DNA of 64,000 nucleotides. Source: Mesostigma viride. Taxonomy: Eukaryota; Streptophyta; Mesostigmatophyceae; Mesostigmatales; Mesostigmataceae. The position numbers were made by a program, and so were the translations under genes. This document shows, piece after piece, positions 22,060-43,885 of the stretch (position 1 is the first letter of the stretch; the number at the start of each line of letters is the position of its first letter). The stretch covers positions 558,001 to 622,000 of the forward strand of contig RPFO01000264.1 in NCBI GenBank assembly GCA_009746045.1. The letters run 5' to 3'. The notes under the pieces are model-generated. The model was given only the letters and a program-made list of their open reading frames with translations. It was not told where the DNA came from and did no database searches.

Positions 22060-22740
22060 CACTACTCAAGCGTTGGTAGTGCACTCGGCTCCTGCGGCCT
22101 CGCCATCAGTGCATCGCCTGATCCTATAAACGCAGTCGCCCAGAAGAATCGCGCCCAACAGAACCGCGCTTTCGGCCCCAACCTTTCAAGGTCGACGATC
22201 ACGACTGGACCAACATATCACCGGCCAGTGCTTTGCACTGCATCTTCTTCGGGGACTATGCCTCGCTTTACGACCTGTGCATCCATCTTGACAGCATCCA
22301 TTGCCTCATCACCCCGGACGGCTCCTGGTTTAACCCCAGGTCTCTGTTCGGTTGCCCCCGCCCCCAACTCCAGCACACCGTTCTCAATTCTCTCGATCCT
22401 CATGCGCTCTGACGGCGAGATCTGGGCCCCATCCATCTCTGCATCCACACTCCGTTCCATCCTTACGGACGCCCTCCAGCAGCACGTGACTCCCCTTGCT
22501 GCAGATGTGGTAGCAATGGGCAGCACGCTGGCTACTAAGCTCCCTCAACTTTCCACCACCGTCACCTCCACCTCCACCCTCCTCACCTCCACCTCCGCTG
22601 CCGCCTACACCTCCACCGCCGACCTCAAAGCCCAGCTCCTCGACCTCGACACCCGCCTCCACGACAACGCCATCGCCATTGAGTGCCTGCAACACACCGC
22701 AGGCCTCACCGCCCAAACCGGAGTTATGTTCCTAATTAAT
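22060..22740 (+). pseudogene. Possible coding relic of unknown origin
   Basis: Two plus-strand frames read like protein in succession. From about 22120 to 22400 one frame gives HDWTNISPASALHCIFFGDY, LDSIHCLITPDGSWFNPRSL and QHTVLNSLDPHAL. From about 22400 the next frame gives DGEIWAPSISASTLRSILTD and then a Ser/Thr-rich and helical stretch (ADLKAQLLDLDTRLHDNAI) up to the GGGA array. A single frame change at about 22405 would join them. The composition suggests an ORF1-like or gag-like retroelement protein or an old host exon. The family is not recognised. Confidence 0.35.
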
Positions 22741-22749
22741 TAATTAATT

Positions 22750-23463
22750 GAGGGAGGGAGGGAGGGAGGGAGGGAGGGAGGGAGGGAGGGAGGGAGGGAG
22801 GGAGGGAGGGAGGGAGGGAGGGAGGGAGGGAGGAGGGAGGGAGGGAGGGAGGGAGGGAGGGAGGGAGGGAGGGAGGGAGGGAGGGAGGGAGGGAGGGAGG
22901 GAGGGAGGGAGGAGGGAGGGAGGGGAGGGAGGGAGGGAGGGAGGGAGGGAGGGAGGGAGGGAGGGAGGGAGGGAGGGAGGGAGGGAGGGAGGGAGGGAGG
23001 GAGGGAGGGAGGGAGGGAGGGAGGGAGGGAGGGAGGGAGGGAGGGAGGGAGGGAGGAGGGAGGGAGGGAGGGAGGGAGGGAGGGAGGGAGGGGGAGGGAG
23101 GGAGGGAGGGAGGGAGGGAGGGAGGGAGGGAGGGAGGGAGGGAGGGAGGGAGGGAGGGAGGGAGGGAGGGAGGGAGGGAGGGAGGGAGGGAGGGAGGGAG
23201 GGAGGGAGGGAGGAGGAGGGAGGGAGGGAGGGAGGGAGGGAGGGAGGGAGGGAGGGAGGGAGGAGGGAGGGAGGGAGGGAGGGAGGGAGGGAGGGAGGGA
23301 GGGAGGGAGGGAGGGAGGGAGGGAGGGAGGGAGGGAGGGAGGGAGGAGGGAGGGAGGGAGGGAGGAGGGAGGGAGGAGGGAGGGAGGAGGAGGGAGGAGG
23401 GAGGGAGGAGGAGGGAGGGAGGGAGGGAGGGAGGGAGGGAGGGAGGGAGGGAGGGAGGGAGGG
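22750..23463. repeat. (GGGA)n satellite, about 0.7 kb
   Basis: Nearly pure GGGA repeats with rare GGA slips, preceded by TTAATTAATTAATTG. It is the same motif as the 11966 array but with the purine strand on top. Long Arg-Glu-Gly-Gly or Pro-Pro-Ser-Leu ORFs on either strand are artefacts of the repeat. Confidence 0.97.
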
Positions 23464-23492
23464 CATGACTGACGGAGGGCATGAATGAGGGA

Positions 23493-23740
<248 letters not shown>

Positions 23741-23745
23741 TTATA

Positions 23746-23842
23746 TGGGTGGGTGGGTGGGTGGGTGGGTGGGTGGGTGGGTGGGTGGGTGGGTGGGTGG
23801 GTGGGTGGGTGGGTGGGTGGGTGGGTGGGTGGGTGGGTGGGT
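23746..23842. repeat. (GGGT)n satellite
   Basis: About 24 perfect copies of GGGT after the short linker GGTTATAT. The G3 tracts fit quadruplex formation. Confidence 0.97.
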
Positions 23843-23961
23843 GCATCCCGTTTCGTTTAAGTGGCCAGCCGGAGCGGCTGCTTAGGTTTTAGCGGGCAAG
23901 TGTTCGAAGCGCGTCATTGGTGAATTACTCGGGAACTTGGGTTTCCCCGCGAAACTCCAAC

Positions 23962-24500: not shown

Positions 24501-24628
24501 CCGTAGCCTAATTTTTAGTACCTCGAAGTGACGGGGCACCTAAAAATTTGCCCACAAGTACACTTGGCAGCGCGCTCACTGGGAAAAATTGTACAGCCGC
24601 TCCGGCGGGCCACTTGAACGAATTGTAA

Positions 24629-25070
24629 TGGGGTGGGTGGGTGGGTGGGTGGGTGGGTGGGTGGGTGGGTGGGTGGGTGGTGGGTGGGTGGGTGGGTGGG
24701 TGGGTGGGTGGTGGGGGTGGGTGGGTGGGTGGGGGTGGGTGGGTGGGTGGGTGGGTGGGTGGTGGGTGGGTGGGTGGGTGGGTGGGTGGGTGGGTGGGTG
24801 GGTGGGTGGGTGGGTGGGTGGGTGGGTGGGTGGGTGGGTGGGTGGGTGGGTGGGTGGGTGGGTGGGTGGTGGTGGGTGGTCGGGTGGGTGGGTGGGTGGG
24901 TGGGTGGGTGGGTGGGTGGGTGGGTGGGTGGGTGGGTGGGTGGGTGGGTGGTGGGTGGGTGGGTGGGTGGGTGGGTGGGTGGGTGGGTGGGTGGGTGGGT
25001 GGGTGGTGGGTGGGTGGGTGGGTGGGTGGTGGGTGGGTGGGTGGGTGGGTGGGTGGGTGGGTGGGTTGGG
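24629..25070. repeat. (GGGT)n satellite, about 0.44 kb
   Basis: GGGT repeats with scattered single-base slips. The same motif as at 23746. The long Gly-Trp-Val-Gly ORFs in all three plus frames are repeat artefacts. Confidence 0.97.
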
Positions 25071-25800
25071 AAGGTGTGCTTTTTATTATGATGATTAGCT
25101 AAGTTACATGTGTGTTATTGATGCACATGTTGACGTTGTATCATGGGCGTGTGCCCCTAAGTCTGCCTTCCTGCATTGTCACATGATATATAATCTAGAT
25201 GTGTTGCTGGGAACCTGACTATACCTTCCAAACTGGAATGAAATCTTGACAACTATGTGATGAAACCCTTGAAAAACAATTACTAGGAACTGCATTTTTT
25301 GTGTTATGTTCGCTAGCATCTGTCACCTATTGGTCGTGCAAACAGTCTGAATTTCTTGTGGGCAGTTAACATAGATGTTTTTATGAGCTGTGCAAAGTTC
25401 TAGGCTTAACTGAGTTCATTGATATGTGCACCCATGTGTCGGAACCCTTGGAAAACCATGAAAAACTGCATATTGGGGGGTATTTATGCTAGCATATGTC
25501 ACCATTTTGCCATCCAACCAGCCTGAAACTTTGTGGGCATGCTTCATGGGATGTGTTTAGAACATGTGCAAAGTTCCAGGCCCAACTGAGTTCATTTGGT
25601 GTCATTATATATGCGGCAGGCGGTACCACCATTCCGTGGCAGCTTGGCCCAGTTTGCTACCGGCTGGCACACGTTTTCAGTGAATTTTGGGCTCCAGATT
25701 TAAATGCAACGTGCGGTTTGAGGCAGGGGAAAACATGCGTGGACGATAGGAATTATAGCACCGGCGGGCTTCAAAGTGCCGGACGGCAGGCGGTACCGCG
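25071..25800. repeat. Unassigned DNA with a degenerate 177-bp tandem repeat
   Basis: Two diverged copies begin at about 25312 and 25489 with GCTAGCAT(C/A)TGTCACC and end with AACTGAGTTCATT. A partial upstream match (AACCCTTGAAAAAC / AACCCTTGGAAAACC) extends the unit. No gene is seen. GC content rises sharply after about 25775, where the LINE appears to start. Confidence 0.6.
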
Positions 25801-25813
25801 ACCGCAGCGCGTT

Positions 25814-25861
25814 GGGGGGCTGCCGCCCCCCAAACCCCCCGCGTGGGGGGCTCCGCCCCCC
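25814..25861 (+). other. Paired GC hairpins at the LINE 5' end
   Basis: Two adjacent stem-loops with seven-pair stems: GGGGGGC-TGCC-GCCCCCC (25814-25831) and GGGGGGC-TCC-GCCCCCC (25845-25861). They lie about 45 bases before the first ATG of the LINE ORF, in what should be its 5' untranslated region. Confidence 0.6.
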
Positions 25862-25903
25862 ACCCCCCGCCCCCCCCCTCGGTGGCTGCCACGCCTGCCC
25901 TGA

Positions 25904-27586
25904 TTGTTCATGGACGACCCACGACCCCCTTCACCAAACGGCTCCCCCGCTCCCCGGTTGGCGCCTCGGCGGTCCTCTCGGCTTGCGGCCCTTCTTGCGG
26001 AGGTGGGCGACCCGGCTGCGGGGGGCTCGGGCGCCCCGGTCTCCCCCTCCTTGGTCTGCGAGGTCTGCCGGAGCGGGCACCGCGGGCACCACATGTTAGT
26101 TTGTGATGCTTGCAATTCCGGGTGGCACTTACAGTGTCTTACTCCCCGGCTCTACCGGGTCCCGCCGGGCTCCTGGACGTGCCCGCGCTGTCCCCCCGGC
26201 GGGCCCCCGGGCTGCCCTCCCCGCTGGGTGCTCCGGCCCCCTGCCCCGTGTGCCCCCCTGCCGAGGCCCTCGGGGCGGGCCGTGGCCTGCCCGATGGGGC
26301 CGCCGTTGCTCGGGCCCTGGCGCCCTCGGCCCCGGGGCCCCACCCGTCGCCTGGCCCCGCCGACGGGGGCGCGGCGCTGTCGCCTGGGCTGGGCCCGGCC
26401 GACCCCCGGCGGGCCTGGCGACCCCGGCGCCCGCCCCCGGCCCCTCGCTCCCCGACGCTCTGGCCTCCCTTCCCCCGGCCGCGGTTGGCCACCCAGCCGC
26501 CACCCCCGTCCTTGCCGCGTGGGACGACGGCCCCCGGGCCCACGCGTTCACCTCGTGGCCGCCCTCGCACATTGTCGGCGTGGTGGGCCGCGCCACCTTT
26601 TCTTGGGCGTACTGCCCTTTGTTGCTGGACGCGGTCGGGTTGACGGCCGCCTTCCCCTCGCTCCCTAGGCCCCCGGCCTTCCTGGCCCTAGTTGCGCGGG
26701 TGCGGGCGACATTTCTTTCCGCCGCCCCCCGGTGACGGCCTCGACTCTTTGGGGGTATGTCTTGGAAGGATATCACGCCGGCTGCCGGCTGCCGTGGCAT
26801 CTCCCGGCCGCCCGGCAGGAAGAGCTGCTTTCCCTGGACGAGCGGGTGGGTCAGGAGGTGGTCGAGTTCGTCACGGCGGTGGCTCGAGACGCACAGGTCT
26901 CGGTGCGGGCGGCCTACCTCGCGGGCGGCGCCGACCTGGGCCTCATGTCCCCGCGGCAGCTTCGCCTCTTCTTGGACGCCCAGGCCCCGCCTCCCGGCCC
27001 GGTTGCCAGTGGGGGCTTTCTCATCACCTCCCTCAGCCTGGCGCAGGCCGCCATGCTGCGTGTGGAGTTCGGGGCCCCCATCGCGGTTCAGGGCGGCCAG
27101 GCCATCTTGGTGGACTCGGCCGGGCGCGCCCAGCCCCTAACCGCGGGGACGCCTGTTTCTGCCTTCCTCCACGACATCCTGGAGTTGGCAGGCATCCCGC
27201 ACGAATGGCACCCCGCGGCTGACCAACCGGTCGGCATCCTCTCGCGCGCCCAGATTGCTGCTCTCCCGGGTTGCTGGGAGGCCGGCTGGGACCCGCCCCC
27301 CCCTGACATGTCCGGTCCCTTCTGGAGGGGGACGACCCCGAGTCGGGCTCCTGTGCCATCTGCCTTGAGCCCTTCCGGCCGGGGGATGGCTTGTGTCGCC
27401 TGCCCGCGTGCGGCCACACATTCCATCAAGCGTGCATCGCGCGCAGCTTGCTCCACTCCGTGCCGCGCTGCCCGTTGTGCCGGGCTGTTGTGCCGCCCCC
27501 TGGGACTGCGCTTCCTCTCGGCCCGCCCCCGGTCTCGCTGGGTCCCCTGCCGGGTCCCCACCGGGCCCCGGGGCCAGCTGCCTCCC
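25904..27586 (+). pseudogene. LINE ORF, N-terminal part: PHD finger, unknown domain, RING-H2 finger
   Basis: The first frame (from ATG 25904 or 25910) has the PHD finger at residues about 52-95: CEVCRSGHRGHHMLVCDACN, then GWHLQCL and WTCPRC, all eight Cys/His ligands present. Frame changes in very C/G-rich DNA follow. From about 26540 a protein-like region reads TFSWAYCPLLLDAVGL and then, after a shift near 26720, GQEVVEFVTAVARDAQVSV and MLRVEFGAPIAVQGGQAILV. This has no family I recognise. The RING-H2 finger is at about 27350-27490: CAICLEPF, CRLPACGHTFHQAC, CPLC. The RING frame runs straight into the TRIM insertion and continues in frame after it. A PHD could target the element to particular chromatin marks, and a RING would suggest ubiquitin ligase activity; both are inference. 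Confidence 0.72.
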
Positions 27587-28102
27587 TGTCAAGAATCCTG
27601 TCTTGAATATGCCCATTATGCTGACCGTGCAGAAATCTATAATACGGGCAGTTGTATTCGAGCCCTAATTAACAAATAGATATGCTCGGATAGTAGTACC
27701 TAAGTGGGATTTGTCCTACGTGAACGGACACTATGACTATGTGCCAAGTTGTACAATGGCACTAGGACGATTGGTCACTATCTTCACCAGATTATAGTAT
27801 TGTGTCATGTGCATGTCATACCATGCCGTACCGAGTCATGCATGCGCATGCACCATGTTCCAACATACCAGCTGTCGTTATCGACCCATTGTCGGCCCAT
27901 GCGCATACCAGGGCCGCCGCCACCACTCACCTACCATAATTACCAATGACAGTACACGCTACCTTGAGGTAGCCATGGAAAGCCACACCATATGGACGTA
28001 ATAAATAATTTTCCTGGCTCCTGACGCTTAAGTTGGCAATGATTCACCACTTACAAATTATTAATTTAAGTCCCCATAATAATAACCCCATGCCTTTTAA
28101 CA
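27587..28102 (+). repeat. 5' LTR of the TRIM-like element
   Basis: 516 bp, TG...CA ends; followed by the primer-binding site. Confidence 0.92.
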
Positions 28103-28115
28103 TGGTATCGGAGTC
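28103..28115 (+). promoter_or_regulatory. Primer-binding site of the TRIM-like element
   Basis: TGGTATCGGAGTC immediately after the LTR; the TGGTATC start resembles the initiator-Met tRNA complement used by copia-type elements. Confidence 0.75.
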
Positions 28116-29090
28116 TTTTGTACCGGCACCATTTCGCGTGGCATCAACATTCTTTTGGGCGCATTCTTTTTGAAACCGGAATTCCTTTTTTTTTTTTTTT
28201 TTAACGGTCATCACTTCAAGAGCCCAGAACCTGCCGTGCTCCAAGTTTCCAAGAAAAAGGGGAACATTCCCTGGGTCCTGCTCTCAAGGCCAGCCTGCTG
28301 ACACAGCTGCACACCACACTAAGGAGGGTGCTCACTAGCCCCCACGTTGTTTTCAGCACTAGTTGCAGTTTTATCATTCAGTCCCATCAGCACCATCACA
28401 CTGGCATCAACAAGCACAGCAGGCAACACCAGCAGGAACAGAGTACACTGCATAGTCCATGCAGGCAGCTACCCACACTTGCCTAGCCAGCAAGGAGAAG
28501 TAGTAGCACCCAGCAGCACATGCATGACTCTCCACCACAGGCGTAGAGTAGATAGTAGCTGCAGTCAGCTGCACGCACTTGTCTAGCTAGCAAGTAGCAG
28601 TCCAGCAACCAGCTCTACATCCTCACGTCACAGTTCACCTTGTAGTAGTTGCAGTAAGTTGCACCAAACCCTGTTGGCAAACAAGTCAAAGTAGCACTAC
28701 CAGCACCACACAAGAAACTGTACCCACACACAGCATATAGATCGTGTGTGCACACACAGCAGCTGACGTCACCGGTTTACCAGCAGCTACCAGTACCCAA
28801 CGTTTCCAGCTGCAACCCTGGCATCAACCAGTACCGGCTACAGTCTGCATCCAGCCTCAACACTGAGCAACCAGTCTTTACAGTTTAAGAGCCTGTTTCC
28901 AGTTTGGCTCCACCCTCGTGTGGCGCACTCCATGTGACAATATGGGGCTACACAACCTTGCCCTCATTTTTCTTGCTGTTTTATATCAAGACCAGGGTGT
29001 CGTGTAAGGAGGGAATCCACTTAGGTACCCGACTACCCTCGCCCAGGATCTAGCATTTGTATTTATAGACAGCATCATGTGCAAGGAGGG

Positions 29091-29602
29091 TGTCAAGAAT
29101 CCTGTCTTGAATATGCCCATTATGCTGACCGTGCAGAAATCTATAATACGGGCAGTTGTATTCGAGCCCTAATTAACAAATAGATATGCTCGGATAGTAG
29201 TACCTAAGTGGGATTTGTCCTACGTGAACGGACACTATGACTATGTGCCAAGTTGTACAATGGCACTAGGACGATTGGTCACTATCTTCACCAGATTATA
29301 GTATTGTGTCATGTGCATGTCATACCATGCCGTACCGAGTCATGCATGCGCATGCACCATGTTCCAACATACCAGCTGTCGTTATCGACCCATTGTCGGC
29401 CCATGCGCATACCAGGGCCGCCGCCACCACTCACCTACCATAATTACCAATGTACACGCTACCTTGAGGTAGCCATGGAAAGCCACACCATATGGACGTA
29501 ATAAATAATTTTCCTGGCTCCTGACGCTTAAGTTGGCAATGATTCACCACTTACAAATTATTAATTTAAGTCCCCATAATAATAACCCCATGCCTTTTAA
29601 CA
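29091..29602 (+). repeat. 3' LTR of the TRIM-like element
   Basis: 512 bp, preceded by the purine tract GCAAGGAGGG and followed by the TSD CTCCC. Confidence 0.92.
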
Positions 29603-32347
29603 CTCCCCGACCCCTCGGCCGCCGCCCCCGGCCTCGCTGCCGGGGCCTGGGGTGGTCGCGGGCGCGCTGGCGAGTCCCCCTGGGAGGGGCGCCGGCGTTC
29701 TCGATCCCCCTCCGCTGGGGGTCTCCCCGGTGGGCACTGCCTCCTCCGTGGCCCCGGCGGGCATGCCGGGCGCTGGTCGGGTCGTGGTGCGCGCGCCTGC
29801 CGGCCCGGCTGGGGAGACGCCGCAGGCCCCACGTCCTGCCTTTGCTGGCGCCGCTCCCCGCCACTCAGCGCCCGCCGACGGCCTTCACCGGTGTGCCGTG
29901 CTGCTTCCCACGGGGTCCCCGTGTGCTGGTGTGTTCCACAACCGTAACCTCCTCTGCCAGCACCTTCGCGCTGTGCACCCCGATCTCGGCGCGGCGGATC
30001 TGCAGGCCATGAGCTGTTACCGGTGCCCGGAAGCTCACTGCCAGCGGGTGTACTCCATTCACGGGCGCGCTCAGCACGCGCGCGCCTGTGTTGCTCAACG
30101 GCCCCTCAACCGGCCAGCAGTCCCGGCCCCCTCCCCCCTCCCGCCTCGGCTCCCACCGGCTCCCAGCCCCCGCCGCCCGACTACTCGGCCAGTTGGCGTT
30201 GGCTTGACACGGTTCCCTGGGATGCATGCGCCATCAACCCGACGTCTACCCTGACCGACCTCCCCCACCGCGCGCGTAGCCTTTTCGCGCAATGTGCAAT
30301 CGTTTCTCTCCGGCGCATGCACGCCGCTCCGGACGACCCGCTGGGCTTTAAACTGCACATGGTGACCCCCCGCCTGCTCCTCACCCCTCTCGGGCGTGGT
30401 GTGCGCGGCCTCCAGGGTGCGGTTATTGCCCGTTGCCGACGCTTTCTGCAGGGGGACTGGGAGGGGCTGTTTGGCGTGCCGCCCCCGCGCACGGCCCGGC
30501 TGTCGGGGGAGGTCAACTTCGAGCGGGTGGCCGCCGACGTCATCCGCCTCGTCCGCGAGGGGCAGCTCAGCCGGGCCATGACCCGCTTGGAAATGGCCAA
30601 GCTGGCCCCCGCCAATGCGGCTACCCTGGCGGCCTTGGAGGCTCTTCACCCTGCGGAGCCCGGATTCCAGCTGCCCGTGCCGGACCCCCTGCCGGCCCCC
30701 CTCCGGCTGGACCGCGACTGCTTCCTGGAGGTGATGCGTGCGGTCCCGCGGGCTTCCTCTACCGGGCCGTCGGGCTGGCGCTACGAGCACTTGGAGGTCC
30801 TGGTGGGGCATGGGGGCGAGGACATTCTCTTTGACACCCTCATTGACCTGGCGGCTGGTCGCGTTCCTCCCGCTGCGCGCGAGTGGTTAGCGGGCGCTCG
30901 CCTCCTCGCTCTGCTCAAGGGTGTCTTGCCCCCCCCGAGGGCAAGGTGCGCCCGATCGCCTGCGGTGAGGTGCTCCGCAAGCTCGTGGGCAAAGTGATCT
31001 GCCGCCAAAAGGCGCCCGAGCTCCGTGCCTTTTTCTGCCCGCCCCTCGCAGCGGGTGAGACCTCGGTGGCGGCCCAGCTGGGGGTGACGACTCCAGGCGG
31101 GGCGGATATCCTCATCCATTCGGTGCAGGCCTACCTCGAGGCCCACCCCACCCACGCTGTCGTCAAGGTCGACTGCCACAACGCGTTCAACAGTCTGTCC
31201 CGCGCCAGCATGTTTGCGGCCGTCATGGAGTCCTTCGAGGACTTGTACGCTTGGACAGCCGTGTGCTACGGCCAGCCCGGCCAACTGGTTCACATCATGG
31301 AGGACGGCACTCGCGGCGGCCTGCTGTCGCGGTCGGGCACCCAGCAAGGGGACCCCCTGGGACCCCTGTACTTTGCCGCCCCCCTCCAGGGTTGCCTCCA
31401 AGCGGTCCATGCTGCCCACCCGGCGGTCGCTATTCAGGCCTACTTGGATGATATCTACCTTCTGGGCCCTGTGCCGGACACCACCGCGGCTCTGCTGGCA
31501 CTGCAGACCGCGGTGGCCGACATCAACCTCCAGTTGACCCTGGCCAAGTGCGCGGTGTACTCGCCCCAAGGTGATTGCTCCGGCTTTCCGCCCCAGCTCT
31601 TGGGCCGGGACGAGCGCCTCCATGGGTTGGATGTCCTCGGCGTTCCGGTTGGCGACCCCGAGTTTGTCATCGATGCTCTGCGGGCCGCCCTCGAGGCACG
31701 CACTGAGGTACTGCCCTTGATTGCGCGCCTTCATGATTCGCAGACCAAGGGTCTGCTTCTGTGGTTTTGCGCTCACCCTCGCGTCGTTCACTGGCTCCGG
31801 GGCGCTCTTCCGGCTCAGGTCCGGCTGGCTGCCGAGGGCCACGACGAACGCATCCAATCGGCCTTGGCGCAGCTGGTCCCGGGCCCCGACCTCCCGCCAC
31901 ATGCTATTCGCATTGCCTCCCTGCCTGCACGGATGGGTGGCTGCGGTCTGACTCGTGCCGCCCGGCTGGCCCCAGCAGCATTTTTGGGCTCCGTCGCTCA
32001 GTCGTGGGCGGAAAGCTGCCGGCTCCTGCCCCTTTTGGCAACGGCAGCGCCTGACCTCCTGGACCCCAGCAGCCCTTTGCCCTTCGTCACCGCCATCCAG
32101 GAGGCCTATGCTGAGATCCAGCAGGCCTGTTCTCCCGTCCGTGCCGCTCAGGCGGTACAGCGCCACCTCCCTCGCGGCACTCCCTCGGTCGCCTCCGTTC
32201 AATCTCCCGCCGCATTCCCTGCTCGCGTCATCGATAAACACCAGAAAACCTACGCGGGTATTCTGCACACGGCTGATTGGATTGCTCTTTTCGCGGACCT
32301 CAACGCCCAGGGACGTGCGTGGCTGTTCTCGCTTTCCTTGCGGAGTG
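29603..32347 (+). pseudogene. LINE ORF, central part: C2H2 fingers and reverse transcriptase
   Basis: The part begins in frame with the RING segment. Two zinc-finger-like motifs are at about 29885-30090: HRCAVLLPTGSPCAGVF with HLRAVHPD, and YRCPEAHCQRVYS with HGRAQHARAC. N-terminal C2H2 fingers are typical of R2/NeSL-type LINEs, where they bind DNA. After a frame change near 30170 in a C-rich run the RT starts (STGPSGWRYEHLEVL). A second change occurs at the C8 run near 30935. RT motifs then follow: GKVRPIACGEVLRKLVGK, VVKVDCHNAFNSLSR (motif A), RSGTQQGDPLGPLYF (motif B) and YLDDIYLLG (catalytic DD at about 31446-31451). The thumb and linker run to RAWLFSLSLRS at the TR-GAG insertion. Confidence 0.85.
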
Positions 32348-35161
32348 TGTCAGGATATGCCCCAATATGCCTGACAGTCTTTTTATTGAGTGTGCTAGTT
32401 TCGGGTATACCGGAACTTATATGACTACTTTCTGCTACATTTGACTAAATATATTTCCAATGGTGTTAGCTGACATCCGATTTCCAGCGGTGTTAGCTGA
32501 CATCCGTACCGTACCTAGTGGTACTGTAGCCGCCTGACAAAATTTGCCTGGATCTGCGCTTCGCGCCCACCCTATGTTCACTAAGTGCTGCCCTGGAGGC
32601 GCAATGTCCTTGTACTTGCATACTAGTGACCCGACGCGTCATTTTAGTGTTGATGTAAGCCACCCACTTGTGTGTGGCGGCTGGATGCACTCTAACTTAT
32701 ACCGTAGATTATTTCCAGATCGACGGATACTGTGACAGTGTGTTTTTCCACTTAAGGGGAGGGGATACCCCTAAAGGGCACTTTTCTGGAAACCATACCT
32801 ATGCATGTGCTAAAAATCCAAAGATGATTGGGGACCATAAATATGATTAAAAAAAAAAATTCCAGCCACTTGGGGGTGGTACTAGCCCCCACCATACACC
32901 GGTTACGCGCTAAAAATAGAAAAAGACGCTATTTTAGTCACATTTTTCCTAGGACAATGGGCAAACATATTGGGACCAAATCATATATTCCCGCATAGTT
33001 CCCTGACTTTTGAGAAAGCCTGCCTAATTTTGAGCACAAAATAATGATGTTTAGACACATTGATGGATTTTCCCGCAAAAAGGGTACTTTTTTAATTAAA
33101 AAAAAATAAATCAAATCATAAACACATGGAATAGTGCCAAATCATATATTCCCAAATACTAGAGGTTGGGGGACACGCAGCCCCAAATTTTCAGGTCATT
33201 CTGACAAGCGCAGCCCTATTTGATGGATATTCCTAGATTGCCACCTGTGATGACGCTGACGGAGGTTTTAGCTAGTATTTAACCACACTAACACCCCTTT
33301 ATACATCTAAGCCACGTGAAAACTGGCCAAACCACATACTACCATCCTCTGCACATATGGTACCTCCTATGTTCAAGGTTTGACGACGTTCTGACAAGAA
33401 CTGCCCAAGTTACAACCATTCTAAGACGGCCACCCATGTAGACACTACAAGGAAACTATAGTAACCATTCAGCCACACTGGCACCTCCTTCTTTATCAAA
33501 GACATCTGCAAACTGACCAAAGCACACATAATTGACTCTTGCACGCTGACGGCAACACATGCTCAACGTGGGGGGTCATTGTGACAAGAACTACTCAAGT
33601 TGATGGGTTTCCTATATGACCACCTGACAAGGCGCTAAGGACCACTCAGTAAGTTAGTAACCCCACAGTGCCACTTCATATGCCATCCAACATGCACCAA
33701 AACCATGCTGAGTATGTTTACAATGTACAAAGGGGTGGCCACGCACCTCATATGTCTTCATCATCCCTCCAGCATGGCCAGCCTTGTAAATATGTTCATA
33801 GCCTTGACAATGGTAGCCCTAACATGCCTAAGCAGCATTTCATATGTTTCTCCCAGGTTAGAGAGTAAGGTTGATGCCAACCAAGCTAATCAGCTCAACA
33901 ACACCTCCTAAACTGTCCTCCCCGGCATGAATGACAAACTGGGACTATGGAGGGCAAGGAACCAAGTAGGAACATGGTATATATAGCTTGCATGCAGTCA
34001 TGCATGTCAACCATGGTTGGCTCAGCACATTGTAGTCTTGTCACATCATCATAACAAAGGAAAGCTCAAACAACCATTGGTGCCAGCTATCTACATGCAG
34101 TCACACAAATGCAATATCTCCAACATCATCATCACTATAACACTTCCATCCCTGCACGATAAAATGCAAAGAAACCATTGGCGGCCCTTCACCGCATGAG
34201 CGCTGTGATGCCGCTGCGGCCTGTGAGGAGAGGGTGCGTCACTCTCAAACAACAAGAAGCGTCCATACGCACAACATCCTTGCCAGAACACGTTTTATGA
34301 AATGCCTTATACCTTCCCGAAGAGCTATAGGCTGCGACTGAAGCGGCCCTGATCACGACATCAACGAAAACAATCTAAAGCTGCCAGGTATTCGACAACA
34401 CAACGGCAAGCGACGGCGAGCTAGCTGGCGGAAACTGCCCAAAAAGAACGCAAAAAACCTCGAACGATGAGCTCATAGAAGAAAGCACCGATAGCAGATA
34501 ACGTTCGCGACAAATCTGTACCTTGCCCTCGTAAATCCCTCGCCCAGGCGCGCAACAACAGCCGTTATTCCATGGACAGGTCAGACACGCACTGCGCAGG
34601 TCTGAACAATTACTTACCGATAATGGCCGAAAATCTGGCAAAAAGCACCAGCTCGGTTTAGAATTCGATGCAACCGATATTAATGCCTGCTTCAAGGTCA
34701 GAACAGCCCCCAAAACCGCTATTTTACAGCCGCTATCATGAATTCTATTTCATTCCGCGCGACCAAAAAATTCAGATTACCCCCCATGCCGATGGCATAA
34801 AAAGACAACAGCGATATTGTAAACCAGCTGATTTCCGCCACAAACTAACATCATAAACTCATCTCCTTTTAGATTCGAGTAAAATTTTTGCATTTCGCCT
34901 GCCCTAGTGTGGTAGTTTCGCCTGAACGCAGTCGCCATGGCCACTTCCGCAAGGGGTGCGCGCACCGTGCACGTGAAATTTATTACCTTCGGCTCCGGCG
35001 CGAATTTTTTGGCGCCAAAAAATTCGGGGGTGTCCCGTCCCCTTAATGTTGCCCCTGCAATTGTCATGGCTACCCGTTTGAACGCCGACTCAAAGTCAAT
35101 ATATATAATCAGTAAAGCATTATTCGATCTTTAAGCCTGCCACCTGTCTTACATTCTGACA
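32348..35161 (+). repeat. 5' LTR of the TR-GAG element (interrupted)
   Basis: 523 bp of LTR once the 2287-bp TTAA element at 32756-35042 and one TTAA are removed. Part of the LTR (about 32505-32735) is the reverse complement of part of the LTR of the 41472 array (about 75-80 percent by eye). Confidence 0.9.
32756..35042. mobile_element. TTAA-flanked non-autonomous DNA transposon (piggyBac-like target)
   Basis: A 2287-bp insertion flanked by TTAA on both sides (32752-32755 and 35043-35046). The matching point in LTR2 (37338-37341) has a single TTAA, so this is a clean empty site. Imperfect terminal inverted repeats are GGGGAGGGGATACCCC and GGGGACGGGACACCCC. No transposase is seen on either strand. 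The inside is AT-rich, with a GC-richer right third. A 26-bp perfect palindrome (35001-35026, core TTTTTTGGCGCCAAAAAA) lies 16 bases from the right end. TTAA duplication is characteristic of the piggyBac superfamily, but the termini do not match the usual CCY start, so the assignment rests on the target site only. Confidence 0.75.
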
Positions 35162-35174
35162 TGGTATCGAGCGG
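35162..35174 (+). promoter_or_regulatory. Primer-binding site of the TR-GAG element
   Basis: TGGTATCGAGCGG directly after LTR1; again a TGGTATC-type initiator-Met-like site. Confidence 0.75.
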
Positions 35175-35475
35175 GGTGGCCAACTAAATTGCTGCAACTG
35201 GTCCCATTTATCGGGCAAATTGACTCCCTGAATCCGACGTCGGCACTTTATGCCAGTCGTGCATATCCTTGACGGGCTTCCCTGTATCGAAATTCAAGAA
35301 CTCCAGTATTTAGACGATCGTCTCTATCTCGTATTCGCTGTTCTCAACCATCGTCGCATATTAATATTAATCTTTACCATTACGGATTGAGCGTCTCCGG
35401 TTTTCTCGGTTGTTTCCAGATTTTCACCTTGCTGAGACTCGGTTGTGACCAGATTTTAACCTTGCCGAGACAATC

Positions 35476-36552
35476 ATGTCCGCAGCCGCGACAGCAGCAG
35501 CTACGAAAGCGACGAAAGATCTCAACATCTTACAGGCCTGCAAAAATATTACACAGTTCGACGGCCTCGACCCAGTAAAGTGGGATAACACGAAGATTCC
35601 TTTTCTGGCCGTAGTGACAGCATTCGGGATGCTGTCTGTCCTGCTTGGCACCGAGGTCAATGAGGAACGCGACCTGATTCTTTTTGCGGCCCTTTGTCAG
35701 TGCCTCGTTGGACCGGCACTCAAAGTGGCAAACAGTGTTACTCAGAAAACAGGCAGCGTGGCATATCATCGCATCTGTGAAGAATATGAGCATCTCAAAC
35801 TGCAGATGAGCAACCGGCGAGCACTACGCCGCAAGCTAAACCGAATGAAGCTGGAACACGGCGTCACAATGCGGCAATATATAACCGACGGGGAATTAAC
35901 TTATAACGACCTGATTGCCACCGGCGCCAAAATGGCACCCGAGGATCTGGCCGAGAATCTGCTCGCCGGCGTGACCGAGGAGTTGCTTCCGTCCCTTGCC
36001 CAATTGAACCTTGGGGACGGTATCACCCTACAGGAAACTAAGGCGGCACTTCTTAAGGCCTGGGACCTTGTGCACGGTAACAAAGATTCCGCGGAGGCCA
36101 CCGGGGTGTATCATACCTCCCACTCTGGACGCGGTGGCCGTGGCACCGGCCGTGGCAGGGGGCGTGGCGGTCACAATGGCGGGACCCTGCGGCCCAGCTG
36201 CACCCACTGCGGTCGCACCTCTCATCAGGAGCCCACCTGCTGGTGGAAGTATCCTCACCTACGGAACACTCGCGGCAACACCGGCGGGCCCGCCACCCAC
36301 CACACCACCGACACCCCGGCGCCCTCCCACGAGGCCCCGACCTCCCCCCCGGTTTCTGCTTCTAAACGCCTTATCCAGCTCCCCCGGGACCGGGAACAAG
36401 GGGTAGCAGCCAGCTGGGCCCAGCTAGCACCAGACGTGGGCCCTGGAGCTTTTCAACCTGCACTGCAGCAGGCGACAGCAGCCAGCCCCCCCAACCCGTC
36501 CTCTGGCCCTCCTGCATCGCTAGCGGCTAGTAGCCCGCCCTGCCAGACGTGA
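35476..36552 (+). CDS. gag: Copia-type Gag of the TR-GAG element
   Basis: A 358-residue intact ORF. Residues about 20-200 form the helical copia Gag (UBN2/gag-polypeptide) region, with FDGLDPVKWDNTKIPFLAV, RRALRRKLNRMKLEHGVTM and PEDLAENLLAGVTEELLPSL. An Arg/Gly-rich stretch (residues about 215-235) precedes the CCHC knuckle CTHCGRTSHQEPTCWWKYP. The tail is Pro/Ala/Ser-rich. The ATG at 35476 lies about 310 bases after the primer-binding site. No protease, integrase or RT follows before the polypurine tract. An intact Gag on a pol-less element suggests it may contribute its own particles or compete with autonomous relatives; that is inference. Confidence 0.9.
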   Translation: MSAAATAAATKATKDLNILQACKNITQFDGLDPVKWDNTKIPFLAVVTAFGMLSVLLGTEVNEERDLILFAALCQCLVGPALKVANSVTQKTGSVAYHRICEEYEHLKLQMSNRRALRRKLNRMKLEHGVTMRQYITDGELTYNDLIATGAKMAPEDLAENLLAGVTEELLPSLAQLNLGDGITLQETKAALLKAWDLVHGNKDSAEATGVYHTSHSGRGGRGTGRGRGRGGHNGGTLRPSCTHCGRTSHQEPTCWWKYPHLRNTRGNTGGPATHHTTDTPAPSHEAPTSPPVSASKRLIQLPRDREQGVAASWAQLAPDVGPGAFQPALQQATAASPPNPSSGPPASLAASSPPCQT

Positions 36553-36932
36553 CAGGTGCAGGTCTTCATGCCAGCAGCCAGCAGTGACCAGTACTGCAGT
36601 ACCAGCATCAACCAGTCAACCTGTGTTCTTTTCTCCTGTGGCGCACTCCCAGGGACACCTGGGGGCCACCGGATGTCTTTCCAGGGTCCCAGCATTTTTC
36701 CCAGCAACAGCAGCCACAACCAAGGTTTTCTAGGGTCACCGGCATTCTCCAAGCGACAGCCACTGTGGCGCACTCCCAGGGACACCTGGGGGCTACAGTC
36801 ATCAAGTCTCCTCTCAGCTCCAACCAGATAGCCGTGTAAGGGGGGTGCCATGGGAGTGTACCCGGCTATACCCTCACTAGCTATAGGTCTCTCTGAGCAA
36901 GGGGGGAACAGGCACATTGTATGCAAGGGGGG
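36553..36932 (+). other. TR-GAG 3' untranslated region
   Basis: CAGCA/CAGTA-rich non-coding DNA containing two copies of GTGGCGCACTCCCAGGGACA plus CCTGGGGG (about 36638 and 36763), ending in the polypurine tract before LTR2. The TRIM-like element has a similar CAGCA-rich internal region with GTGTGGCGCACTCC, which suggests a common ancestry. Confidence 0.7.
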
Positions 36933-37405
36933 TGTCAGGATATGCCCCAATATGCCTGACAGTCTTTTTATTGAGTGTGCTAGTTTCGGGTATACCGGAA
37001 CTTATATGACTACTTTCTGCTACATTTGACTAAATATATTTCCAATGGTGTTAGCTGACATCCGATTTCCAGCGGTGTTAGCTGACATCCGTACCGTACC
37101 TAGTGGTACTGTAGCCGCCTGACAAAATTTGCCTGGATCTGCGCTTCGCGCCGACCCTATGTTCACTAAGTGCTGCCCTGGAGGCGCAATGTCCTTGTAC
37201 TTGCATACTAGTGACCCGACGCGTCATTTTAGTGTTGATGTAAGCCACCCACTTGTGTGTGGCGGCTGGATGCACTCTAACTTATACCGTAGATTATTTC
37301 CAGATCGACGGATACTGTGACAGTGTGTTTTTCCACTTAATGTTGCCCCTGCAATTGTCATGGCTACCCGTTTGAACGCCGACTCAAAGTCAATATATAT
37401 AATCA

Positions 37406-38272
37406 CCTTCGTGCTCTTCCCATGGCCCCCCCATTCGCCTTGGCTCCCAGCCACTACTCGGTGGCGCTCCGGCACCAGCTATTTGCCCCGCAGCCTCTTG
37501 TTCCGGCCGGGCGGCCTTGTGGTAGCTGTGGGCAGCCGCTGGATCCCACGGGGACTCACTACCTTGCCTGCATGGGGGGCCAACAGAATCAGAATTGGTA
37601 TTTGTATTTGCACACTGTCCTCCTGACGGTGGTGCTCGCCATGATTCGGTCGGTCTTCCCCCACGCGAACATCCGGTCCGAGGATGCGGATGGCGCTGCC
37701 TTCTATTCCCCCAACCACCGGCCTGACATCGTGGTGCTGGACTTTGAGGGGGGTGGACGGCATCTGCTTATTGACGTTTCGGTGGCGCGGCCCTTGGCTC
37801 TTAGCCACGTGGCTGGGGCCTCCCTCACGGCAGGTTACACGGCGGACCGGGCGGAGCGGGCCAAGCTCCTGGCCTATGGCGACGTCGGGCACCATCGTGT
37901 GGTGCCCTTTGTCCTGGAGGAGTTTGGGGCCATGGGGCCCCTGACCTCCGCCTTCTTCAAGGAGTGTTGCCGGCTCCGGGAGGACCGGCTGGACCTGGAG
38001 GGCCAGCGGGCCCCATGGTCGGCGCGGACCTGGACGTCATATTGGCGTCAGCGCTTGTCGGTGGCGCTGACTCGGGCCATGGCTGACATCATGCTCCGCC
38101 GTACGCGGGCTGATTTTGCGGTGCAGCAGGGCTATTAGGTTCCTCCCGTTAGGCGTTTCCATTGGTCTTATCGTAGTATAGAGCTTTGACATGGCTCTGT
38201 ATATAGGTTTATAGCTGGGCGTTTGCTTTGGTTTGAGTGATTTCACTCTGTTGTAAGTAATTATATTTTTTA
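37406..38272 (+). mobile_element. 5'-truncated copy of the PHD-RING LINE inserted in the TR-GAG 3' LTR
   Basis: The insertion is flanked by a 14-bp TSD (AATATATATAATCA at 37392-37405 and 38273-38286), as expected for target-primed reverse transcription. It matches the host LINE from 38359 on, almost base for base. Unlike the host it carries the intact end of the ORF, a stop at 38136-38138 and about 130 bases of 3' untranslated region ending TTATATTTTTTA. It therefore came from a different, more intact LINE copy. Confidence 0.92.
37422..38138 (+). CDS. LINE C-terminal CCHC and restriction-like endonuclease domain (intact 3' part)
   Basis: The open frame of this truncated copy gives 239 residues. 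CGSCGQPLDPTGTHYLAC is a C-x2-C-x8-H-x3-C knuckle. It is followed by RPDIVVLDFEG and LLIDVSVA, the R-PD...D core of the restriction-like endonuclease found in R2, NeSL and CRE-type LINEs, which nicks the target. A helical tail follows (RAERAKLLAYG, FFKECCRLREDRLDLE, MADIMLRRTRADF) to the stop. The first ATG is only the first Met inside the fragment; no independent start is implied. This is the most intact version of the domain in the window. Confidence 0.82.
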   Translation: MAPPFALAPSHYSVALRHQLFAPQPLVPAGRPCGSCGQPLDPTGTHYLACMGGQQNQNWYLYLHTVLLTVVLAMIRSVFPHANIRSEDADGAAFYSPNHRPDIVVLDFEGGGRHLLIDVSVARPLALSHVAGASLTAGYTADRAERAKLLAYGDVGHHRVVPFVLEEFGAMGPLTSAFFKECCRLREDRLDLEGQRAPWSARTWTSYWRQRLSVALTRAMADIMLRRTRADFAVQQGY

Positions 38273-38345
38273 AATATATATAATCAGTAAAGCATTATTC
38301 GATCTTTATGTAAGCCTGCCACCTGTCTTACATTCTGACAGAGTG

Positions 38346-39066
38346 TGGGCTCGGCGTACCTTCGTGCTCTTCCCATGGCCCCCCCATTCGCCTTGGCTCC
38401 CAGCCACTACTCGGTGGCGCTCCGGCACCAGCTATTTGCCCCGCAGCCTCTTGTTCCGGCCGGGCGGCCTTGTGGTAGCTGTGGGCAGCCGCTGGATCCC
38501 ACGGGGACTCACTACCTTGCCTGCATGGGGGGCCAACAGAATCAGAATTGGTATTTGTATTTGCACACTGTCCTCCTGACGGTGGTGCTCGCCATGATTC
38601 GGTCGGTTTTCCCCCACGCGAACATCCGGTCCGAGGATGCGGATGGCGCTGCCTTCTATTCCCCCAACCACCGGCCTGACATCGTGGTGCTGGACTTTGA
38701 GGGGGTGGCCGGCATCTGCTTATTGACGTTTCGGTGGCGCGGCCCTTGGCTCTTAGCCACGTGGCTGGGGCCTCCCTCACGGCAGGTTACACGGCGGACC
38801 GGGCGGAGCGGGCCAAGCTCCTGGCCTACGGCGACGTCGGGCACCATCGTGTGGTGCCCTTTGTCCTGGAGGAGTTTGGGGCCATGGGGCCCCTGACCTC
38901 CGCCTTCTTCAAGGAGTGTTGCCGGCTCCGGGAGGACCGGCTGGACCTGGAGGGCCAGCGGGCCCCATGGTCGGCGCGGACCTGGACGTCATATTGGCGT
39001 CAGCGCTTGTCGGTGGCGCTGTCAGACTCGGGCCATGGCTGACATCATGCTCCGCCGTACGCGGGC
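38346..39066 (+). pseudogene. LINE ORF, C-terminal part: CCHC and restriction-like endonuclease, damaged
   Basis: The part continues in frame from the RT piece (SLRS|VGSAYLRALPMAPP). It has the same CCHC knuckle and RPDIVVLDFEG core as the 37422 copy. One G is missing at about 38701 (GAGGGGGTGG against GAGGGGGGTGG), which destroys the frame before the second catalytic Asp. Four extra bases (TCAG) occur near 39022. Similarity to the sister copy stops at 39067, where unrelated sequence and the palindrome begin, so the true 3' end is lost. Confidence 0.85.
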
Positions 39067-39096
39067 TGTCTGATGCGAGCGGCTCCGGCGGTAGGG

Positions 39097-39302
39097 AGTT
39101 AGGTTAAATAGTGCCGGAACCTTTTGCCGCCTGAGGCAAATCGGTCCGTCACACTATTTTGCCCGGAATAACCACTTCCGAGCACCCAAGTTGATTCGGC
39201 CGAATTAACTTGGGTGCTCGGAAGTGGTTATTCCGGGCAAAATAGTGTGACGGACCGATTTGCCTCAGGCGGCAAAAGGTTCCGGCACTATTTAACCTAA
39301 CT
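39097..39302. repeat. 206-bp near-perfect palindrome
   Basis: The two arms are exact reverse complements from 39097 to 39302 except for one mismatch (39193/39206), with no loop: the centre ATTCGGCCGAAT is itself palindromic. Ends are AGTTAGGTTAAATAGTG and its complement. It lies exactly between the LINE remnant and the DIRS-like fragment. It could be a hairpin-type MITE, a foldback end or a product of template-switched replication. Confidence 0.95.
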
Positions 39303-39306
39303 TGGG

Positions 39307-39965
39307 GTGGTCTACAGGGACCTGCCTGGGGCTGATTGTGCCCGGCTGGCGACCCGGCGCGAAGCGCGGGGGTGGCGGACGACAGCTTTAACGTCTGGGG
39401 AGGACTGGGTCCTGGAGCGCATGGAGGAGGGGGACTACAGCCTGCTGGATAGTGGCCACTGGCGTACGGCACTGTCCTACCGGTGGCGGGGGCAGCCTAA
39501 CCACATCAACGTCAAGGAGGCGATTGCTGCGACACAGGGGGTCGAGTGGTCGTGCCGGACCAAGGCGCATTGTGCGTGTCGAGGTAAGCGAGTCGTCCGG
39601 CTCGTGGACTCTAGTGCTGTGGTGGGGGCGTTTGTCAGAGGGCGGTCGTCTTCCTACCGCCTCAACCAGCTGGTTCGGCGCAACTGCACTCTGTCACTGG
39701 CTGGCGACATGCCGAGAGCCACTGGGTCTGGGTGGCTACCGACCACAACCCAGCTGACAAGGCCAGTCGGCGTGGCGCTTGGATTCCTGACTTGACCCGG
39801 TGTGGTGACGTGCATCCCAACCCTGGGCCTGAGGGGGCGCGACGCCCTCGGGACTTGGCACTTTTGGAGGGCACAGTCAACCCTGTGTCTACCTTGCCAG
39901 CGTACCGGCGCGCGGGCGGCTGTCTACGTGGCGTGGGCGCCACCTGGCCCTGTCGACCCAGCTGA
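39307..39965 (+). pseudogene. DIRS-like RNase H with a 2A-like motif at its end
   Basis: The frame from 39307 gives GHWRTALSYRW, HINVKEAIAATQGVEW, VVRLVDSSAVVGAFVRGRSS and YRLNQLVRR, the layout of DIRS-family RNase H. The next frame (39732-39965) supplies ATDHNPADKASRRG, the conserved NPAD...SRR end. Immediately after this comes CGDVHPNPGP at 39801-39830, a match to the core of 2A-like ribosome-skipping peptides. This would separate RNase H from the recombinase. Then the frame runs into Arg/Gly-rich sequence and stops. Confidence 0.75.
39801..39830 (+). other. 2A-like ribosome-skipping motif (CGDVHPNPGP)
   Basis: The motif has D-V-x-x-N-P-G-P, with His-Pro in place of the canonical Glu-x. 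Variants of this kind are known from non-LTR and other retroelements. It sits at the RNase H/recombinase boundary, where polyprotein separation would be useful. Confidence 0.6.
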
Positions 39966-40786
39966 CGCGGAAGCCATTTTCTGTGAGTGGATTTCTGCTG
40001 TCTACCATGCCAGAAGCGGGCCGGCGGGGGCGTACCTTATGCCAGCACGCCAAGGCCTGTCTGCACCTGTACTACCCCGACATTGTTCGGAATTGGGTAC
40101 TGGCGAACCGCCTGCTAGCAGGTTGGCAGCGGCTTGTTCCGGCTGTCAGCCCTCCGCCTATCGGCCCTGGCACCTTTGCTATTTCACTGCCCTGTTGCTA
40201 GTTTCACGTCGACAGGTGCATTTGAGTGCGTTGATTATTATTGCTTTCCAGCAGTATTTACGCATTAGCGAGGCGCTATACCTAGGGCTGCGGGTTCGGG
40301 ATGTGGCTCATCCCGGCCACCCCCTTCTCGAGCCAGGGCCCACGGTCGGTGCCCTGGTGCTGCGCAACCCCAAAACTGCGCAGGGGGCGGCCCAGCACGT
40401 CCTCGTCCGAGATCCACTTTCTTTGTGGCTCCTGCGACGCCTGACGGCTGGCCAGCCCCTGGATGCACTTCTCTCTCGGGGTTTAACGTACAGCCAGGCT
40501 ACATAGGCAGCAGTGGGAGGCTGTGCAGGCCCACATGGGCATCCCGGGGATGTTTTCTTTTCACAGCCTCCGGCATGGGGGGGCGACGCACGACGCCATC
40601 GCTGGCGAGTCGCCGGAGGCCATTCTGAGCTGCGCGGCCGGTGGGCTTCTGCCCTCTCGGTCACGCGCTACATTGGCCTCCACCACAGCCTCCTGGGGCG
40701 CGACATCCCGCCCGCCCTCTGGGCTCAGGCCCTGGGTTTCGACCCAGCGGCTTTCCGGCGCCACTTCGGTGGCGTCGAGTTTTGAC
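39860..40786 (+). pseudogene. DIRS-like tyrosine recombinase
   Basis: The enzyme would integrate a circular element DNA intermediate. An N-terminal helical part reads KACLHLYYPDIVRNW and LLAGWQRLVPAVSPPPIGPG (40050-40180). The core follows in another frame: QVHLSALIIIAFQQYLRISEALYL has the first catalytic Arg (about 40262). FSFHSLRHGGATHDAIAG holds the H-x-x-R box (about 40558-40570), and after a shift near 40625 RYIGLHHSLLGRD carries the likely catalytic Tyr. The stop after FGGVEF at 40785 is a natural-looking end. RNase H next to it argues for a DIRS-like retroelement and against a Crypton. Confidence 0.75.
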
Positions 40787-40790
40787 GTCT

Positions 40791-41471
40791 TCCTGTCTTT
40801 ATCTCTCGTCTTTTAGCAATCAACTGACCTCACCCTTGTGTGGGAGGTCAGGGGGGACATGGTTTAACTAACCCGAGGGTGAACCTGGGTTGGGACAAAG
40901 TACCCCCGTAGCTAGGTAGTTTAGGTTTTCTTTTTTGCATGTCCTACGTATTTTCGGCTGTTAGCCATGTAAGGAGATGTGGGTAGAGCAGGGGCACAGC
41001 TGCTGTGGGCTGGCCCTGCACATTCACATAGTGTGCTCACCCTAGCATACAGATGGCCGTGTTGCCATCTGGTAGACATGTCTGTGTTATTCCACCGTAT
41101 AGAGCTAGCACACATATTGTAATAAATTTGATGTTTTGTGGTGATGCATGCAAAGCAAGGCATTGAAGGCCAGAAATGGATTTGGTGAGCTATGCTAATT
41201 TTATCTATGACTAACCTGCTGAGCGGAGAATGCAACGCCGCATAGCACAAAAAGAAAAAATAATTTTGAAAAAAATATTTTTTGTGCTGGCACCCATACC
41301 CCAGCCACCCAGGTAGGGGTTGGCTGGACAGGTGGTTGCTATAAAAGGTGGGCTTCCATTCTAGGGAATCAGGTTGTTTCTTTTGCCTCCCACCCACCCA
41401 CCCTGGTTAAAGGGGTAAAGCAGGGGCACAGCTGGCAGCTGTGGGCTGGCCCTGCACATGCACATAGTGTG
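40791..41471. other. Host DNA with an intact paralogue of the array target site
   Basis: About 0.7 kb with no gene. The segment 40985-41160 (GGGGCACAGCTGCTGTGGG, CACATAGTGTGCTCACC and on) is a paralogue of the sequence split by the LTR array (41413-41471 plus 49427-49570), and so shows the uninterrupted target. ACCCACCCACCC at 41392 is a short GGGT-type run. Confidence 0.7.
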
Positions 41472-42175
41472 TGTCGGGAAAATGACCAAAAACTTCTCCT
41501 AGCTTGCACAATAAAAGCTGGCTATCTGAGGAAAGTTCCGGTACTTGAAGACCTTTGACCTTATGGACAAGAATGAGGCGAATTCATTGGTAATAATCGC
41601 TTAATCATTGATCCAACATAGTCTAGGCTGCGGCCATGGGGCGGCCAGCTGCCATAGCTTAGCATATCAAGGCTTACAGGACAAATTGCCAGAGCAACAT
41701 TATGTGGAAAAAGCACACCGTCCCTATATAGCCGTCGATTTAGGAAAAAATCTACGGCACAGTTAGGGTGCAGGCCAGCCGCCACACAAAACGTGGGTGG
41801 CTTGCATCAACACAGACATGATGCGTTGGGTCACTAGTATGCAAGTACAAGGACATTGCGCCTCCAGGGCAGCACTTAGTGAAAAAGGGTCGGCGCGAGG
41901 CGGGGATCCTGGCAAATTTGTCCGACGGCTACAGTACCGGCAGGACAGTGCTCGGTACGGTACGGATGGCAGCAAACAGTGCTGGAAATATATTGAGTGC
42001 CGATTTATACTACATCGGACTTTGACCAAGTGGACTGAAAATATAAGTATCGTCTGAAAAAGATTCCGTCACACTAGTACAGATTCATCTACGCGTAAGC
42101 GTCTCGGCCATATATTGTAAGTCGGCCGTAACTGTTCAGCGTAAGAAAGCCATCGGACAGAATATAATTCTAACA
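41472..42175 (-). repeat. Array LTR 1
   Basis: 704 bp. On the plus strand it starts TGTCGGGAAAATG, where the others have TGTCAGGAAAATG, and ends TTCTAACA. Confidence 0.93.
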
Positions 42176-42354
42176 CACCCCCTTGGTCGATGGCTGAAGC
42201 TGACGGGCAAAATATAAAACAAACACACCCCCTTGCCCAAAGAGAAGACACGGCAAGTCTATAACTAGGGGGGTACAGGACACCCCGGGGCCCATAAGAC
42301 CATCACAGGTCAGACTCGCCAGATTAACTCAAACAGGACAGAGGAGATAAAACT

Positions 42355-43281: not shown

Positions 43282-43538
43282 GGTTCAGCTCTCCACAAAG
43301 TAGTCGCCACACCAGTACAGTGTAGTTGCAGCAGAAAGGATAGCTCCAGAAAAAGGTGGGACGCAGCAAACGTGACCACAACTCGGATTAAGACCAGTGA
43401 CAGGGCAGGCCAGGCACCAAAAGTCACACTGGATAAGGAAATAGCCGAGTGCTGCACAGTAGCAACGCGTCACTGAGTCGCAAACAGGAGCATGCACAGT
43501 AGGAGTGCTCACAAAATACCAACAAATGGTCTCGTTGC

Positions 43539-43772: not shown

Positions 43773-43885
43773 GCCTCATCCAAAAATTCCCAAAGAAAGC
43801 AGCAGGAAGAGAAATATGGGCCAGCAAAATTCGCAGAGGGCCGGCTTAAGACTTGTCGAGTGGTCAAAAGCGAATCGTAGCTTAT

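Follow-up and report, generated by a model that had tools for sequence, protein, structure and literature searches.

Domain order of the element in the window

The window, a 64,000-nt stretch of Mesostigma viride DNA in contig C1978 of the 440-Mb host assembly that was searched, carries a long interspersed nuclear element (LINE) of the restriction-like endonuclease (REL) type. The copy lies on the forward strand at 25614–39068, is split by two long terminal repeat (LTR) elements and has lost its 3′ end. On either side of the inserts, its identity to other copies in the genome is about 97–99%. The element combines, in this order, a PHD finger, a middle region, a RING-H2 finger, C2H2-like fingers, a reverse transcriptase (RT), a zinc knuckle and the REL, all on the + strand. 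The earlier note had let the element start at 25904; comparison with other copies places the start near 25614, in the last unit of a 170-bp tandem array, and the 5′ region consists of this unit plus 14 bases (25614–25797).

The PHD finger (26057–26191) matches PF00628 with an E-value of 2.4e-10 and 40.7 bits against a cut-off of 24, and it satisfies the C4HC3 pattern. Its nearest solved structures are CHD4, WSTF, ATXR5 and KDM5, and histone-reader PHDs match at E 1e-15 to 1e-10. Weaker matches in the PDB include the PHDs of UHRF1 and UHRF2. Several of the CHD4, WSTF, ATXR5 and KDM5 fingers bind histone H3 unmethylated at K4. The middle region (26735–27331) belongs to no Pfam family, so that no Ulp1-like protease is seen there by Pfam; its predicted model is poor (mean pLDDT 53), and its end is kept in a second family described below. 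The RING-H2 finger (27352–27480) matches PF13639 with E 1.5e-12 and 48 bits against a cut-off of 27.3, keeps all eight zinc ligands, and resembles the ubiquitin ligases EL5 and Arkadia.

Two C2H2-like fingers (29922–29978 and 30015–30089) are recognized by eye, with Pfam E-values of 0.11 or worse. The segment 30925–32347 holds the RT, with YLDD at 31441–31452, and the first part of the linker. The RT is of the non-LTR type (RVT_1, E 2.6e-11), and its best fold matches are R2 and L1; the RT fingers start upstream, in a different frame. The remainder of the main copy (38346–39068) holds the zinc knuckle (38471–38524) and the REL, with RPD at 38672. The RPD..D motif and the knuckle are recognized by eye, and the REL matches no family in Pfam. 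Among the fold matches of the RT-REL model, R2 proteins rank first (seven top rows), with 755–789 aligned columns and TM-scores of 0.32–0.38. No apurinic endonuclease (APE) or other endonuclease family appears among the Pfam matches of the LINE pieces searched. From the domain set claimed in the earlier note, the PHD, the RING and the RT are thus confirmed by Pfam profiles, while the C2H2 and REL motifs are seen by eye only.

Some features weigh against these assignments. The predicted REL part has low pLDDT, so confidence in the model behind the REL fold is low. The knuckle reads CX2CX9HX3C in the window and in the proteins P0001 and P0002, with its histidine one place off the spacing CX2-3CX7-8HX4C given for REL LINEs in PMC5678591. 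The RING keeps the Ile and the C-terminal Arg and has no Trp at its usual place, where the alignment puts Ser or Leu; Trp at this position is usually a contact to the ubiquitin-conjugating enzyme (E2). A codon-usage frame model, at the setting used, calls neither the PHD nor the RING stretch coding. For the RING, the Pfam match and the conservation in the second family outweigh this negative call.

Both LTR insertions are flanked by exact 5-bp duplications. The first element (27587–29602; duplication CTCCC) has two LTRs of about 516 bp. The second (32348–38340; duplication GAGTG) is of the copia type, contains a gag match (PF14223, E 9.9e-07) and carries nested inserts. One of these is a separate, 5′-truncated copy of the same LINE on the + strand (37406–38272), consisting of the REL and the 3′ untranslated region and flanked by the duplication AATATATATAATCA. 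It sits in the 3′ LTR, which explains the doubled endonuclease in the window, and the 5′ LTR provides the corresponding empty site at 35098–35111. That 5′ LTR carries an insert of about 2.3 kb (32751–35041) that is bordered by TTAA on each side and has CCCC/GGGG ends, features resembling those of a DNA transposon that targets TTAA.

Once the two LTR elements are removed, the frame runs on from RING to C2H2 and from RT to REL, as the earlier note had stated. Other joints are broken. In family 1, to which the window copy belongs, the frames of the PHD, the middle region, the RING-C2H2 part and the RT differ, and in the window copy the frame breaks between PHD and middle region, between middle region and RING, between C2H2 and RT, inside the RT and inside the REL. 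At least two of these breaks fall in C runs. Decay, assembly error and frameshifting are candidate causes. A programmed frameshift, by slippage on a run of eight C, could join the upstream part of family 1 to the RT. The run lies within the RT in 20/20 copies compared, with differing frames on either side, which favors slippage and counts against a simply continuous protein. However, the break is located inside the RT domain, the open frame around one family-1 RING match has 1280 codons, a length that would suffice to reach the REL, and many family-2 copies have a single frame. Another C run varies between copies (six long in eight and seven long in two of the ten copies read; six in the window). 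If the assembly is that of PMC6947507, which was built from PacBio RSII reads and polished with Illumina data, the lengths of C runs in repeats may be wrong; that paper also reports PacBio transcripts. Programmed slippage is quite unlikely.

Copies in the genome and a second family

Family 1 is abundant. The searches, whose counts are lower bounds, give at least 86 RT, at least 150 RING and at least 150 PHD matches, and the RING and PHD matches are near-identical; with so many of each, chance matches to PHD and RING are unlikely. An identical 748-codon RT-REL frame is present in 71 of the 86 RT matches listed. In at least 48 of these 86 copies, a RING match on the same strand precedes the RT by no more than 4 kb (RING places read by eye). 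Likewise, 108 of the 150 PHD matches listed are followed on the same strand by a RING, 107 of them at 1.27–1.39 kb and one at 2.06 kb.

Twenty of the RT copies, 8.7–9.8 kb each, were compared in detail. PHD and RING are both joined to RT and REL in ten, three (L028, L029 and L033) have the RING without the PHD, and seven are 5′-truncated below the RING at differing points. The upstream part of the copies is 97–99% identical to the window, and in seven of the twenty about 11 tandem 170-bp 5′ units lie upstream and reach the edge of the compared stretch. These copies bear on the possibility that the PHD and RING are host DNA (the case that the earlier note had named as the outcome that would undo its claim), or a captured piece, lying ahead of a truncated LINE. 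Truncation of the 5′ end at many points is a mark of LINEs, and the seven copies without PHD and RING are therefore explained by it. The RING stands at the same place in 13/20 copies, it is paired with 108 of the 150 PHD matches listed, and in family 2 it shares one frame with RT and REL. We regard a host origin as extremely improbable and rejected it on the independent copies and the second family; no support for it was found. The arrangement shared among copies, together with the in-frame RING of family 2, bears out the proposal that all domains belong to one element.

Among EukProt gene models, the RT query matches P0003 (85% over 33% of the query), P0005 (68% over 29%) and P0004 (99% over 21%); P0004 crosses the copia insertion site without the insert. 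A 767-residue query for relatives elsewhere gave nothing at E ≤ 0.001, a weak test because the frame of the query departs from that of the RING, and viral contigs gave no relative. Family 1 is a young, high-copy, site-specific and recently active REL LINE.

Family 2 is represented by P0005, whose RT-REL protein is about 70% identical to that of family 1 and which has 105 matches in the genome, listed at 100%. At the place expected for the RING (L081), a single open frame in a 611-base stretch covers the end of the middle region together with a RING-H2 finger. This RING matches PF13639 with E 2.1e-10 and 41.1 bits and keeps all zinc ligands and the C-terminal Arg. The stretch has at least 150 genomic matches; 40 of the 150 listed lie in 1336-codon frames and eight in frames of 1351–1797 codons. 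In the five family-2 copies compared (C1 265640, C1591, C1513, C1580 2612323 and C224 2700597) the RT-REL frame is as long as the RING frame, and RING and RT-REL are therefore in one frame. The 1797-codon frame is located at about 487466–492860 on the − strand of C1591. Matches to the stretch extend from 80% down to 57% identity, family 1 itself standing at 53–58%, and the 80–57% matches point to possible further related families. One match (C1602:1673028) lies in an unexplained 5717-codon open frame.

Ratios of nonsynonymous to synonymous substitution between the two families (dN/dS, Nei-Gojobori) are 0.15 over 46 RING codons, 0.20 over 63 codons closing the middle region and 0.12 over 128 codons of the REL. 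The RING thus appears about as constrained as neighboring parts. Certain points temper what family 2 adds. With dS at 1.65–1.83, near saturation, the ratios are rough. The usual E2-contact Trp is absent from the family-2 RING as well. The matches listed for the PHD itself as query and for the Pfam PHD profile are filled by family 1 (at least 150 each) and are silent on a family-2 PHD, and none of the first six Pfam PHD matches away from family-1 places stands beside a family-2 match.

A PHD-like motif pattern fits 38 genomic places (for example C69:378277 and C113:1282007). The four strings inspected are identical, CDHCNCGWHLHC, and may belong to another repeated element with a PHD-like finger.

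Target site and possible roles of the two fingers

The LINE inserts at TATATA and produces TATA-containing target duplications. Sixty 3′ flanks (20 + 40) were inspected, 58 of them read automatically. In 58/58 readable flanks, ATATA or TATAT begins 6–11 bases past the anchor ..GTAAGTAATTAT, at the element end ATTTTTAA; in L070 the element end itself is altered. The first 25 bases of the 3′ flank hold TATATA in 44/58 and ATATAT in 54/58, while the background rate of such 5-mers away from the junction is 0.4% of positions (68/16546). The two flanks outside the automatic reading are L078, which by eye is the same on the other strand, and L065, which has no visible element end. All five family-2 ends inspected stop at TATATAT, and two of these ends meet family 1 tail to tail.

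The 5′ junction can be read in 13 copies. Nine of them have an exact TATA-containing string of 8–15 nt common to both flanks, such as ATATATATTCCCGAC in L038, ATATATGTGCT in L039 and ATGTATATAAT in L036. Two points weigh against this site choice: three of the nine (L023, L030 and L040) are short or AT-only and weak alone, and in the other 4/13 copies the flanks share only 5–7 nt. The L041 copy, in opposite orientation, has inserted at the same CATATATAATG in the repeat that directly precedes the window copy. TATA is present in this repeat and in the empty LTR site, and so is part of the target, not just of the element tail. In 14 of the 58 flanks the neighboring sequence is a further LINE copy, in either orientation, from family 1, family 2 or a relative; this would be expected from insertions that each leave TATATA behind.

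Targeting of H3K4me3/TATA-box promoters was raised by recurring flanks, one with a short downstream open frame. This idea was dropped, since the nearest PHDs include several readers of unmethylated H3K4 and 14/58 flanks are simply copies of these LINEs. Open frames starting MS.KR.ST.RSL..A lie downstream of two insertion sites (L024 from 7535, and the 3′ flank of L038), and probably represent a repeated gene or element with TATATA upstream.

The nearest named relative of the RT is a Diplonema protein labeled SLACS by its source, with 76 bits. For R2 in the PDB, this query gives 15 bits (E 0.07). Since the SLACS-labeled protein is the nearest named RT, we suspect an affiliation with the CRE group. 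Members of this group are likewise single-protein, site-specific REL LINEs, and SLACS has tandem repeats at its 5′ end, as here. Known CRE-group targets are spliced-leader genes and telomeres, unlike TATATA, and we know of no PHD or RING in the group. R2 is the best fold match of the RT-REL model and has N-terminal C2H2 fingers, RT, knuckle and REL, a series that the present LINE appears to share, but its sequence match is weak (15 bits). It targets 28S rDNA and, to our knowledge, has neither PHD nor RING.

A PHD and a RING also occur in one protein in UHRF1 and UHRF2, where they couple histone reading with ubiquitin transfer; these are host proteins with other domains and without an RT, and no common origin is claimed. 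Dualen carries an OTU-type protease and both APE and REL. NeSL and Utopia resemble the present LINE as REL LINEs with extra N-terminal domains. According to PMC4640811, in which the term PHD does not occur, NeSL and one Utopia have a Ulp1-like protease, oomycete Utopia has an RNase H, and REL LINEs also carry zinc fingers. These proteases remove ubiquitin-like tags, and RNase H cuts RNA, whereas a RING would attach ubiquitin. In CR1/L2 LINEs, a PHD lies in open reading frame 1 and a role in chromatin targeting was proposed, not tested, its authors being aware of no functional study (PMC4120745); that paper does not contain the term RING. CR1/L2 are APE-type LINEs of the Jockey superfamily, unlike the present LINE with its REL-type 3′ end and its RING. 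PHD in LINEs is thus already known. In line with the earlier note, which knew of no described LINE with this set, we found no paper pairing a PHD finger with a REL LINE and no REL LINE with RING or with PHD and RING in the accessible literature, a search that in part covered titles and the openings of abstracts and whose coverage leaves out most subscription papers and Repbase.

A REL LINE protein nicks its target and primes reverse transcription there. We propose, with a probability of roughly 0.6 for the explanation as a whole, a site-specific REL LINE in which the RING serves the element, the PHD acts on H3 tails and the RING acts with an E2. The REL, aided by the C2H2 fingers, would recognize TATATA and nick beside it, and target-primed reverse transcription as in R2 would follow. 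Service of the RING to the element is likely because family 2 keeps this finger under selection about as strong as that on the endonuclease. With less assurance, the PHD may keep the complex on H3 tails close to TATATA sites that are accessible, and an E2 recruited by the RING may ubiquitinate either the element protein or a host protein at the target. As a first guess, tethering would be to nucleosomes with H3 unmethylated at K4, and not to H3K4me3 promoters, since several of the nearest PHDs (CHD4, WSTF, ATXR5 and KDM5) bind H3 tails of the former kind. Ligase activity of the RING is plausible and unproven, because the ligands and the final Arg are kept but the E2-contact Trp is absent. Both histone reading and ubiquitin transfer are functions that we infer from the domains. 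In the published REL LINE plan, as given in PMC5678591, a single protein carries RT, CCHC knuckle and REL.

Two variants lie on either side of this proposal. The PHD and RING could be zinc folds put to another use, binding nucleic acids or self-associating, that neither read histones nor transfer ubiquitin; REL and C2H2 alone would then choose the site. The TATATA preference is a DNA feature, whose choice could be explained by REL plus C2H2 without the PHD, a point that also counts against our proposal; moreover, the RING is without its usual E2-contact Trp, and REL LINEs employ zinc knuckles and fingers for nucleic acids (PMC5678591). Against reuse, the PHD matches histone-reader PHDs at the E-values given above, the RING matches EL5 and Arkadia, and family 2 retains all zinc ligands and the C-terminal Arg. 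We consider such reuse possible and the less probable reading. More doubtful still is a full scheme in which docking of the PHD on H3 tails (perhaps with unmethylated K4) and cleavage of TATATA by the REL are combined with ubiquitination of a local protein by the RING, which would open the site or else clear the complex after insertion. If it were true, the LINE would carry a ligase as the counterpart of proteases known from other REL LINEs (Ulp1-like, OTU-type).

LINEs of the REL type insert at fixed sites and attract interest as tools; the present one offers a short, well-defined target plus a histone-reader-type and a ligase-type finger. Its near-identical copies, related family and natural empty sites make chromatin steering by a LINE PHD testable, and the use of ubiquitin ligation by a LINE likewise. 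Such steering was proposed for the CR1/L2 PHD (PMC4120745).

Neighboring sequence

Upstream of the LINE copy, 20907–21917 on the − strand encodes an RT (RVT_1, E 1.8e-17) that belongs to a different retroelement, the window thus holding a second one that is LINE-like. At 22740–23888 and 24508–25114, short units are repeated in long tandem arrays, with several frames open on both strands. Directly past the cut 3′ end of the LINE lies a 206-bp palindrome (39097–39302) with 103-nt arms, 99% identical and without a spacer; pieces related to it occur in L033 and L040. The adjoining stretch 39301–40816 has frames that by eye resemble the RNase H and tyrosine recombinase of a DIRS/Ngaro-type element, and 39796–40503 gives no Pfam match. 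Farther downstream, 41684–49240 contains repeats at a spacing of 2413–2427 bp, four copies of a stretch related to the LTR of the copia-type element, and an (ATGG)n array is located at 49571–49992.

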